Shown: positions 14,532 to 63,443 of the stretch, in pieces
How positions within the stretch are numbered: the stretch's first letter is position 1
How the letters are laid out: every line of letters begins with the position of its first letter
Source: Alcanivorax sp.
Lineage (GTDB): Bacteria; Pseudomonadota; Gammaproteobacteria; Pseudomonadales; Alcanivoracaceae
Direction: 5' to 3'
Length of the DNA: 64,000 nucleotides
Assembly: GCA_022449455.1 (NCBI GenBank)
Contig: JAKUPL010000010.1
Span: 1-64,000, forward strand
Translations under genes and position numbers: made by a program
Notes under the pieces: generated by a model
Database searches by the model: none
What the model saw: only the letters and a program-made list of their open reading frames with translations
What the model was told of the DNA's origin: nothing

Positions 14532-14647
14532 GTGGCCTTTGGCCACGATGCAGGGTAAAGGATTCAGGATGCAGGAAAACATTGGCCCTTTAGCCGCCCC
14601 TGCATCCTGCATCCTGCATCCTGCATCGCCGCGAGCTGGCTCGCGGC
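14532..14647. repeat. Heptad-array inverted element, copy 1
   Basis: Order along the plus strand: stem-loop GTGGCC-TTT-GGCCAC (14532-14546); four heptads, GATGCAG, GGTAAAG, GATTCAG, GATGCAG (14547-14574); a 25-nt spacer; four inverted CTGCATC heptads (14600-14627); stem-loop GCCGCGAG-CTGG-CTCGCGGC (14628-14647). Two further copies with the same architecture lie at 34346-34504 and 63340-63443. This copy starts 12 nt beyond the 3' end of rnpB. No transposase is nearby. Could be a non-autonomous mobile repeat or an RNA structure; function unknown. Confidence 0.8.
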
Positions 14648-14658
14648 CGTGTTTGGGT

Positions 14659-15013
14659 GGACCGGTCGATAAGCCGGGTTCTGTCGTGGGCAGCCATTCA
14701 TCTGGGACCCGCGTCACCGCGGGCCTCAAGCGACCTACCCGGATCCAGCGCGGGCCACGCCATGGGATCCCTATTTGGTCTTGCTCCGGGTGGGGTTTAC
14801 CCTGCCACCGCTGTTGCCAGCGGCGCGGTGCGCTCTTACCGCACCTTTTCACCCTTACCGGTTTCCGAAGAAGCCGGCGGTTTGTTTTCTGCGGCACTTG
14901 CCGTGACCGCGCCGTCGCCAGCGCGGCCCCCAGGCGTTACCTGGCACCCTGCCCTATGGAGCCCGGACTTTCCTCCAGTGGCGCGAAGCCACCAGCGGCT
15001 GCCTGACCGGTCC
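14659..15013 (-). ncRNA. rnpB: RNase P RNA, class A (rnpB)
   Basis: Catalytic RNA that matures tRNA 5' ends. Recognised on the minus strand by the conserved GAGGAAAGTCCGGGC block, followed by TCCATAGGGCAGG and GCCAGGTAACGCC near the 5' end, and by AGAACCCGGCTTATCGACC at the 3' end. The boundaries are set by the terminal helix: GGACCGGTC at the 5' end pairs perfectly with GACCGGTCC at the 3' end. A TATGCT -10 box lies at 15026-15021 (minus), with a weak -35. Length about 355 nt; ends are good to a few nucleotides. Confidence 0.95.
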
Positions 15014-15050
15014 GGCGCGGAGCATAGCACGACAATGCCTCCGGTCGCTC

Positions 15051-34345: not shown

Positions 34346-34504
34346 TGGCACATGCCACGATTCAGGATACAGGATGCAGGATGCAGCGCGAATTGGCCTC
34401 GCCGGGCGTGGGGAGACTTTGCTTTCGCGCCGGTACCCGCAGCGCACTTCCGAGCCCCCCTGAATCCTGTATCCTGCATCCTGCATCGGGCGGCGAAGCC
34501 GCCC
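34346..34504. repeat. Heptad-array inverted element, copy 2
   Basis: Plus strand order: short palindrome TGGCA-CA-TGCCA (34346-34357); heptads GATTCAG, GATACAG, GATGCAG, GATGCAG (34359-34386); 73-nt spacer; heptads CTGAATC, CTGTATC, CTGCATC, CTGCATC (34460-34487); stem-loop GGGCGGC-GAA-GCCGCCC (34488-34504). It fills the intergenic space between divergent rplM and the aldo/keto reductase. Largest of the three copies because of the long spacer. Confidence 0.8.
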
Positions 34505-62609: not shown

Positions 62610-63335
62610 ATGGCACATCTGAGCGCCCATAATCTGGCCAAGAGCTACAAGAGCACCCGCGTCATCGAGGACGTGTCCCTGGAAGTGGAAGCCGGCCAGA
62701 TCGTCGGCCTGCTGGGCCCCAACGGCGCCGGCAAGACCACCTGCTTCTATATGATCGTGGGCCTGGTGGCGGCCGACGCCGGCCGCATCGAAATCAACGG
62801 CGATGACATCACCCACCTGCCCATGCACGGCCGCGCCCGCCGGGGCATCGGCTATCTGCCTCAGGAAGCCAGCATTTTCCGCCGGCTCACCGTGGAGCAG
62901 AACATCATGGCGATCCTGGAAACGCGCAAGGAAATGACCAAGGCGCAGCGCGAGGAACAGCTGGAGAGTCTGCTCAGCGAGTTTCACATCGACCACATTC
63001 GCGACTCCATGGGCATGAGCCTGTCCGGCGGCGAACGCCGGCGGGCGGAAATCGCCCGCGGGCTGGCCACCAACCCGGACTTCATCCTCCTCGATGAACC
63101 CTTCGCCGGCGTCGACCCGATCTCGGTGAACGACATCAAGGGCATCATCCGCCACCTCAAGGAACGGGGCATCGGCGTGCTGATCACCGACCATAACGTG
63201 CGCGAAACCCTGGACATCTGCGACACGGCCTATATTGTCAGTACCGGCCACATCATCGCCGAGGGCGACGCCACCACCATTCTCGGCAACCAGCAGGTAC
63301 GCGACGTCTATCTGGGGGCCGACTTCCGGCTCTGA
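62610..63335 (+). CDS. lptB: LPS export ABC ATPase LptB
   Basis: Cytoplasmic ATPase of LptB2FG that extracts LPS from the inner membrane. 241 residues, identical in length to E. coli Lpt[20 protein letters not shown] is Walker [20 protein letters not shown] the Q-loop region, [17 protein letters not shown] the signature, and [16 protein letters not shown] Walker B with D-loop; [11 protein letters not shown] holds the switch His. ATG directly follows the lptA stop. Repeat copy 3 begins 4 nt after its stop. Confidence 0.97.
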
Positions 63336-63339
63336 AGCA

Positions 63340-63443
63340 GCGGCCTGCGGCCGCGATACAGGATGCAGGTTGCAGGATACAGAGGCAGGCACCGCGCCCC
63401 TTCACCCTGTATCCTGCATCCTGTATCGGCCGCCGAAGGCGGC
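63340..63443. repeat. Heptad-array inverted element, copy 3
   Basis: Stem-loop GCGGCC-TGC-GGCCGC (63340-63354); heptads GATACAG, GATGCAG, GTTGCAG, GATACAG (63355-63382); a 24-nt spacer; inverted heptads CTGTATC, CTGCATC, CTGTATC (63407-63427); stem-loop GCCGCC-GAA-GGCGGC (63429-63443, the stem closing at 63443). It starts 4 nt after the lptB stop and ends 36 bp before the rpoN sigma-54 promoter, so it separates the lpt and rpoN transcripts. Confidence 0.8.

Follow-up and report, generated by a model that had tools for sequence, protein, structure and literature searches.

Inverted heptad arrays with abutting hairpins form a dispersed, insertion-polymorphic intergenic family in an Alcanivorax genome

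What kind of element lies beside the RNase P RNA gene (rnpB) of this Alcanivorax sp. genome, and is it one member of a family? The window analyzed here was a whole stretch of 64,000 nucleotides at the start of contig JAKUPL010000010.1. A sequence-only reading of it had proposed that three loci share a common plan, and this was confirmed in copy 1 (14532-14647), copy 2 (arms 34359-34487), and copy 3 (arms 63355-63427), all of which consist of + heptads, a spacer, and then inverted heptads (Table 1). Matches to two heptads with up to two mismatches numbered 23 in the window compared with 4.1 expected, and none of 100 shuffles scored as high. An Rfam search of the window at gathering thresholds returned RNase P as the sole match and none for the elements. 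Copy 1 sits between rnpB on the minus strand and a same-strand open reading frame; the distance to rnpB, previously given as 12 nt, is 6 nt when measured from the Rfam RNase P boundary (14654), a model boundary that need not be the end of the RNA. Copy 1 may be transcribed together with rnpB. The protein of the gene to the left of copy 1 is 92-98% identical to that of four Alloalcanivorax assemblies, which places the window in an Alloalcanivorax genome. Copy 3 follows an ABC-type ATPase gene (62610-63335, + strand) that we take to be lptB.

Table 1. Positions in the window of the parts of the three elements and of rnpB.
Feature	Position	Strand	Basis or remark
Copy 1 left flanking hairpin, GTGGCC-TTT-GGCCAC	14532-14546		Sequence reading, folded
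Copy 1 left arm, four heptads (GATGCAG GGTAAAG GATTCAG GATGCAG)	14547-14574	+	Arm parse
Copy 1 spacer/core, short class	14575-14599		Arm parse
Copy 1 right arm, 4 x GATGCAG	14600-14627	-	Arm parse
Copy 1 right flanking hairpin, GCCGCGAG-CTGG-CTCGCGGC	14628-14647		Resembles the terminator-like hairpin behind A. marinus SY10-13 rnpB
rnpB, RNase P RNA class A, neighbour outside the element	14654-15014	-	Rfam RF00010, 325.5 bits
Copy 2 left short stem, TGGC-ACAT-GCCA	34346-34357		Read from the sequence; below the counted stem length
Copy 2 left arm, four heptads	34359-34386	+	Arm parse
Copy 2 interior, long class	34387-34459		Arm parse
Copy 2 right arm, four heptads	34460-34487	-	Arm parse
Copy 2 right hairpin, GGGCGGC-GAA-GCCGCCC	34488-34504		Read from the sequence; hairpin scan flags the same end
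Copy 3 left hairpin, GCGGCC-TGC-GGCCGC	63340-63354		3' of the stop of the + strand ABC-type ATPase gene (62610-63335)
Copy 3 left arm, four heptads	63355-63382	+	Arm parse
Copy 3 spacer/core, short class	63383-63399		Arm parse
Copy 3 right arm, four heptads, innermost degenerate	63400-63427	-	Arm parse
Copy 3 right hairpin, GCCGCC-GAA-GGCGGC	63429-63443		Sequence reading and hairpin scan

Further copies were sought in the whole genome (4,223,410 bases, 70 contigs), as the sequence-only reading had suggested. The 17-mer GATNCAGGATNCAGGAT occurred 98 times (52 + 46), whereas the reversed-pattern control gave 0. Loci were taken from the complete 17-mer list and the listed part of a second pattern list, and the window together with loci L031-L077 supplied 48 sources, in which 49 elements were parsed as a + array followed by a - array; the opposite order was absent in two scans permitting either order. 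Set against an estimate of well over a hundred copies, this parse gave 49 distinct elements with GATNCAG arms on both sides, a lower bound. Among their 368 heptad units, the commonest were GATACAG (136), GATGCAG (99), GATTCAG (62), and GATGAAG (25). GATNCAG held as a motif, but its N does not stand for any base, since the fourth position was A in 151 units, G in 147, T in 70, and C in 0; the heptad is therefore written GATDCAG. Arms had been described as having three or four heptads; four is the usual number (76/98 arms), and 30/49 elements have the 4 + 4 form. Neighbouring units were identical in 0.122 of 270 cases compared with 0.200 in within-arm shuffles (0/2000 as low), indicating that plain slippage was not their source. 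The fourth base was the same across arms in 61/160 comparisons compared with 0.409 in shuffles, showing no compensatory pairing; this lack of covariation implies that perfect pairing of the heptad stem is not maintained. A reversed-order cross-arm match, prompted by copy 2, was weak (55/123 compared with 0.384; approximately 133 of 2000 shuffles as high) and was rejected. Separately, L033 (C4:81606) and L042 (contig C12) carry an identical element with identical flanks on two contigs, representing a recent or an assembly duplicate, and L049 (C21:5331) is a deletion form that has lost the left arm, so that the left hairpin nearly abuts the heptad array and hairpin of the right side.

The interiors of the GAT elements are GC-rich; short copies are often GGCACCGTGCC-like, and long copies often contain one or two CGCGGGCACGGCC/GGCCGTGCCCGCG stem-loops. 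GTTNNAA was found as a second heptad type in the same genome (91 + 74 triplets; control 1 + 1); its arms are likewise inverted and of four units, and many of its elements contain the palindromic core seen in GAT elements. Of the 28 exact matches to the core GCGCGGGCACGGC in the genome, 9 were assigned by eye to GAT elements and 14 to GTT elements, some of which are one-armed; the other 5 seem to lie in coding sequence. With up to one mismatch (GCGGGCACGGC), the core was present in 24/49 GAT interiors, including 17 of the 22 long ones, and missing from the other 25/49. It was also present in 10/19 GTT interiors, a count restricted to loci not fetched by the core, since the other GTT set was partly core-fetched. 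Shuffled interiors gave 0.8 of 65 and 0.25 of 19. The proposed dispersed family with a conserved plan stands, and it extends beyond three GAT copies, as the GTTNNAA elements share the core. Four units were counted in 20/32 GTT arms, and identical neighbours were again rarer than in shuffles, with a weaker effect (0.212 of 85 compared with 0.278). A period-7 inverted-pair scan of 464 kb of this genome found 12 pairs (8 GAT and 4 GTT); these counts are minimum values, because elements already known, such as those at C23:95264 and C23:303125, escaped the scan. The same scan of the same 464 kb gave 0 at periods 8, 9, and 10, 14 at period 5, and 21 at period 6, and the printed period-6 pairs resemble GC-rich coding sequence. 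In three further loci (L201, L203, and L210, on C22, C37, and C57), all truncated by contig ends, one and the same IS-like end (TGGACTGGCCCC...GTAGACAC) interrupts the element within the core or next to it, as would be expected of an insertion sequence with a preference for such elements.

The sequence-only reading had also held that the flanking stems vary in sequence and still pair. We counted a hairpin as abutting when its stem had at least 5 pairs (one mismatch allowed from 7 pairs) and ended no more than 2 nt from the arm, which excluded the left stem of copy 2 (TGGC/GCCA) as too short. Hairpins abut 52/98 GAT arm ends, compared with 0-5/98 at shifted boundaries and 212/3000 at random positions. 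When the distal part of each end was combined with the proximal 8 nt of another end, these chimeras averaged 16 of 98 and never exceeded 22 in 200 trials. After dropping GGCCGC ends, hairpins were found at 38/84 ends compared with a mean of 9.0 in chimeras. True ends thus exceed chimeras, indicating that the stems pair with themselves and vary between ends. Structure without fixed sequence is therefore a feature of about half of the GAT arm ends, and the remaining ends have no counted stem; other GAT ends are A-rich (AAAAGAC and similar). Loops start with T, read toward the element, in 32/52 hairpins. At GTT arms, hairpins abutted 4/32 ends compared with 5, 3, and 2 at shifted boundaries, which is not above control, implying that the overall plan does not depend on hairpins.

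All 49 elements were predicted to fold more stably than their mononucleotide shuffles (median z -7.5, range -11.7 to -3.4). The predicted fold of copy 1 is a hairpin, a long heptad stem, and a hairpin (-74.3 kcal/mol). By eye, several elements show the order hairpin, element, T-tract (L035, L050, L061, L063, and L070). Perfect hairpins no more than 12 nt past the stop were found at 17/156 long ORFs of one 320-kb contig, 3 of the 17 leading into heptads, compared with 94/780 for the in-gene control on the same contig. Post-stop hairpins were no commoner than in-gene ones, so such stems are not general to gene ends here. This counts against the idea that the stems are ordinary host terminators, yet copy 1 and L063 resemble terminator insertions. 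The idea that the stems are inverted copies of host flanks was rejected; L031 hints at it, but L055 and the second L032 element do not.

We compared syntenic stretches in four relatives (A. marinus NMRL4, A. marinus SY10-13, A. gelatiniphagus, and A. profundimaris). Copy 2 was absent from 4/4 relatives, and A. gelatiniphagus has GCTTGNN heptads in that gap. The copy 1 site measured 12 bp in NMRL4 and 21 bp in A. profundimaris and held a GTT element in A. gelatiniphagus. In SY10-13 the site comprised 59 bp, in which rnpB is followed by a hairpin of terminator-like appearance and a T-tract; the site also contains a stretch that aligns by eye with the outer left part of copy 1. The GGTAAAG unit of copy 1, unique among the 368 units, aligned by eye to the SY10-13 T-tract behind the rnpB hairpin, suggesting either that copy 1 entered a terminator or that SY10-13 retains the remains of an old copy.

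Another 21 elements of our genome (19 GAT and 2 GTT) were compared in NMRL4, A. gelatiniphagus, and SY10-13. NMRL4, the closest relative, shares 6/19 GAT sites (L034, L037, L039, L052, L061, and L070). Whole or partial GAT elements were shared at three sites with A. gelatiniphagus (L037, L038, and L061; left flank not found for 1/19, L056) and at three with SY10-13 (L036, L039, and L070; left flank not found for 2/19, L056 and L068). At the L052 site, A. gelatiniphagus showed no GAT arrays up to the contig end. The GTT element L179 is common to our genome, NMRL4, and A. gelatiniphagus, and L175 is shared with none. GTT arms were present at our GAT sites in A. gelatiniphagus (second L032 element, L058, L068, and L070) and NMRL4 (L068), the L058 and L068 occupants having one arm only. 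GCTTGNN arms were present at the sites of our elements in A. gelatiniphagus (L036, L039, L076, and L175) and NMRL4 (L036), and some other orthologous sites held GTAGGAGCG-type palindromes or no element. The L048 site in SY10-13 (L244) carries a further inverted heptad-like element, of the GCGTGNN type.

Empty orthologous sites, which the sequence-only reading had named as a check, were found: copy 3 is missing in 4/4 relatives and L055 in 3/3, the aligned L055 flanks being separated by 1 bp in NMRL4, 3 bp in A. gelatiniphagus, and 12 bp in SY10-13. Our L055 allele has a hairpin, arms, an interior, and a short end, and the relatives are near-empty, indicating that the hairpin arrived with the element there. 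By eye, element-less alleles also lacked the hairpin at L031, the second L032 element, L048, and L055 in NMRL4. At L063, A. gelatiniphagus and SY10-13 have a hairpin and a T-tract, and our genome has the hairpin, the element, and the T-tract. A composite of A. gelatiniphagus (L226:7320-7600), with an outer CAAGCTG run and, inside it, a one-sided GTT array and core, has a precise empty site in 4/4 others and a possible 4-bp AGGC duplication; this was the sole candidate for a target-site duplication, none being consistent by eye at the compared sites. Close relatives thus carry or lack elements at the same places, and the elements appear to move. Presence and absence could in part result from deletion, as the remnant-like sequence at the copy 1 site of SY10-13 may suggest.

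The elements lie between genes, whose directions were called by a codon-usage script and not taken from annotation. In the 46 cases with both flanking genes called, 15 were convergent, 24 tandem, and 7 divergent, and convergent genes flanked 21/107 gaps of 30-400 bp on contig C23. A CsrA-like reading of CAGGAU was dropped because GTT arms have no GGA. GAT and GTT heptads occurred in the same 9/13 genomes of the genus. Among 145 sampled genomes of the order, only 5 of which belong to the same family, GATDCAG triplets were found in 2, both of this genus. The 15-mer GATDCAGGATDCAGG was present in 4/4 named Alloalcanivorax genomes and 0/5 others. Period-7 scans of 100 kb from each of four relatives gave 3 (A. 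gelatiniphagus), 0, 0, and 0, and 64 loci of other genera (757 kb) gave 0. As far as searched, the GAT heptads are restricted to the genus.

MITEs are short, non-autonomous inverted-repeat elements. The GAT elements are likewise short and have terminal inverted repeats at the heptad level, not letter for letter, but neither a parent transposon nor a consistent target duplication was found for them. No autonomous copy was seen with arms paired up to 220 bp beyond the left arm, or in a genome-wide search that covered Y1 genes. The statement that no named element has this plan was half right, as no name was found but convergent heptamer arrays of Xanthomonas are in print. According to the available part of Rehm et al. 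2015 (PMC4692102), these GGGAATC/GGGANTN arrays, described as G-quadruplex repeats, have mostly four units, are mainly intergenic, and form 70 and 75 convergent +/- pairs per genome. They resemble our elements in having heptads in runs of about four units, variable positions, and intergenic convergent pairs, whereas the heptad is another one, and their description, as far as available, mentions no flanking hairpins, common core, empty sites, or additional heptad type. The GATDCAG and GTTNNAA consensus in tandem have no GGG run, and only degenerate GGT units give one, so the G-tract heptads of the G-quadruplex type are a Xanthomonas feature that the GAT/GTT consensus does not share. The TAACTGA heptamers of Beggiatoaceae also form short arrays (2-6 units), but in the available text of PMC4679880 they are direct repeats (169 sets compared with one indirect), show no inverted plan, and mostly sit a short distance 5' of start codons. 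A literature search whose scope excluded most subscription journals listed no study of these heptads in either Alcanivorax or Alloalcanivorax. By the searches made the family is new, and the Xanthomonas GGGAATC arrays, as far as their description was available, are the closest printed relative found.

The elements are thus dispersed and insertion-polymorphic, with mostly four-unit arms, a core shared across heptad types, and abutting hairpins. The most likely reading, which we hold with moderate confidence, is that they are copies of a non-autonomous mobile family of intergenic inverted repeats that is REPIN-like in behaviour. REPINs, which are REP doublets associated with RAYTs, are described in the accessible part of PMC3116915 as small inverted doublets, predicted to fold and dispersed in the genome, that presumably spread via an enzyme in trans. 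Our elements share the size, the fold prediction, and the dispersal; their ends, however, are heptad arrays and not a single tagged palindrome, and no RAYT is linked to them. A typical copy of this non-autonomous family would have a GC-rich interior between four GATDCAG heptads on one side and four inverted heptads on the other, with a hairpin at about half of the outer ends. Copies may spread by insertion via an enzyme that is supplied in trans and recognizes both the arms and the strand in its folded form, a step modelled on REPINs, which are thought to use RAYTs. The arms would serve as recognition addresses, different heptad types answering to different recognition proteins. Copies could survive beside gene ends, where position and predicted fold suggest that the folded transcript may act as a terminator, a terminator stand-in, or a 3'-end stabilizer. 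As a whole, the sequence-only interpretation is partly supported by these results.

Among the alternatives, evolution in place, in which slippage expands heptads beside pre-existing terminator hairpins with no mobile unit, would account for the differing arm lengths of orthologs (the left arm of the GTT element at 68418 has three units in our genome and seven in A. gelatiniphagus) and for the hairpin and T-tract seen in relatives at copy 1 and L063. We consider it improbable, since the arms mostly have four units (76/98), adjacent identical units are avoided, which is the opposite of what slippage predicts, copying is needed to explain how inverted arms and a common core came to lie at numerous unlinked positions, and some element-less alleles, by eye, also lack the hairpin. 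It is similarly doubtful that the elements are host sequences which selection maintains as bidirectional terminators or for the stability of mRNA 3' ends, with copying only an occasional event. The very stable predicted fold, the 15/46 elements between convergent genes compared with 21/107 gaps on C23, and the hairpin, element, T-tract order (e.g., at L035, L061, L063, and L070) are consistent with such a role, but 24/46 elements lie between tandem and 7/46 between divergent genes, and in any one relative the element is missing from most compared sites, which argues that no individual gene can depend on such a function.

A REP/REPIN family mobilized by a RAYT of this genome would likewise be many-copy, intergenic, of similar size, and an inverted doublet with a predicted hairpin fold, and the genome has five Y1_Tnp matches. 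This origin is nevertheless very unlikely. A RAYT linked to the elements had been named as a check, and GAT arrays were found at 0/44 loci, which comprise all 48 Y1 matches of the 13 genus genomes; GTAGGAGCG was present at 8 of these loci, GTT at 1, and GCGTG at 2. At the orthologous sites compared above, GTAGGAGCG-type palindromes form a class of their own. All 13 genomes have Y1 genes, with heptads or without, and after clustering 52 Y1-like ORFs (40 loci), no cluster occurred in all nine heptad-positive genomes and in no others. A GTAG or CGTC tag beside the palindrome is a REP/RAYT feature according to the title of PMC3733652; beside the GAT-end hairpins, GTAG occurred no more than 7 nt outside at 3/52 and CGTC at 0/52. 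Thus, neither of the REP features tested, the tag and the linked RAYT, was found. A telomerase-like reverse transcriptase that writes heptads on an RNA template would produce fixed-period repeats in more than one alphabet in one genome, but we regard it as highly improbable: RVT_1 gave no match in the heptad-positive genomes G003, G005, G006, G008, and G010 and did match in the heptad-free G001, G011, and G012. RVT_1 does not follow the heptads, which largely refutes a writer of that type. There is a small but real chance that the elements represent a class of mobile elements with exchangeable heptad address arms, one palindromic core, and an insertion chemistry that builds or selects hairpins; GATDCAG, GTTNNAA, and perhaps GCTTGNN and GCGTGNN would then be alternative codes for different proteins. 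The (near-)perfect hairpin of its own sequence at about half of the GAT junctions points to such a chemistry.

Heptameric repeats are over-represented in many bacterial genomes and, according to the portion of PMC4692102 available, have been little studied in detail. Here, the heptads are the ends of insertion-polymorphic inverted elements with a core common to heptad types. A statistic on repeats thereby becomes a question that experiments can address: what enzyme mobilizes the elements, and what reads the heptad? The family alters the downstream sequence of genes such as rnpB between close strains. The gap upstream of rnpB (approximately 15015-15050; L083-L086) is also species-variable; our genome has a short remnant there, NMRL4, A. 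gelatiniphagus, and SY10-13 have GTAGGAGCG palindromes, and A. profundimaris has GTGAA-type heptads.
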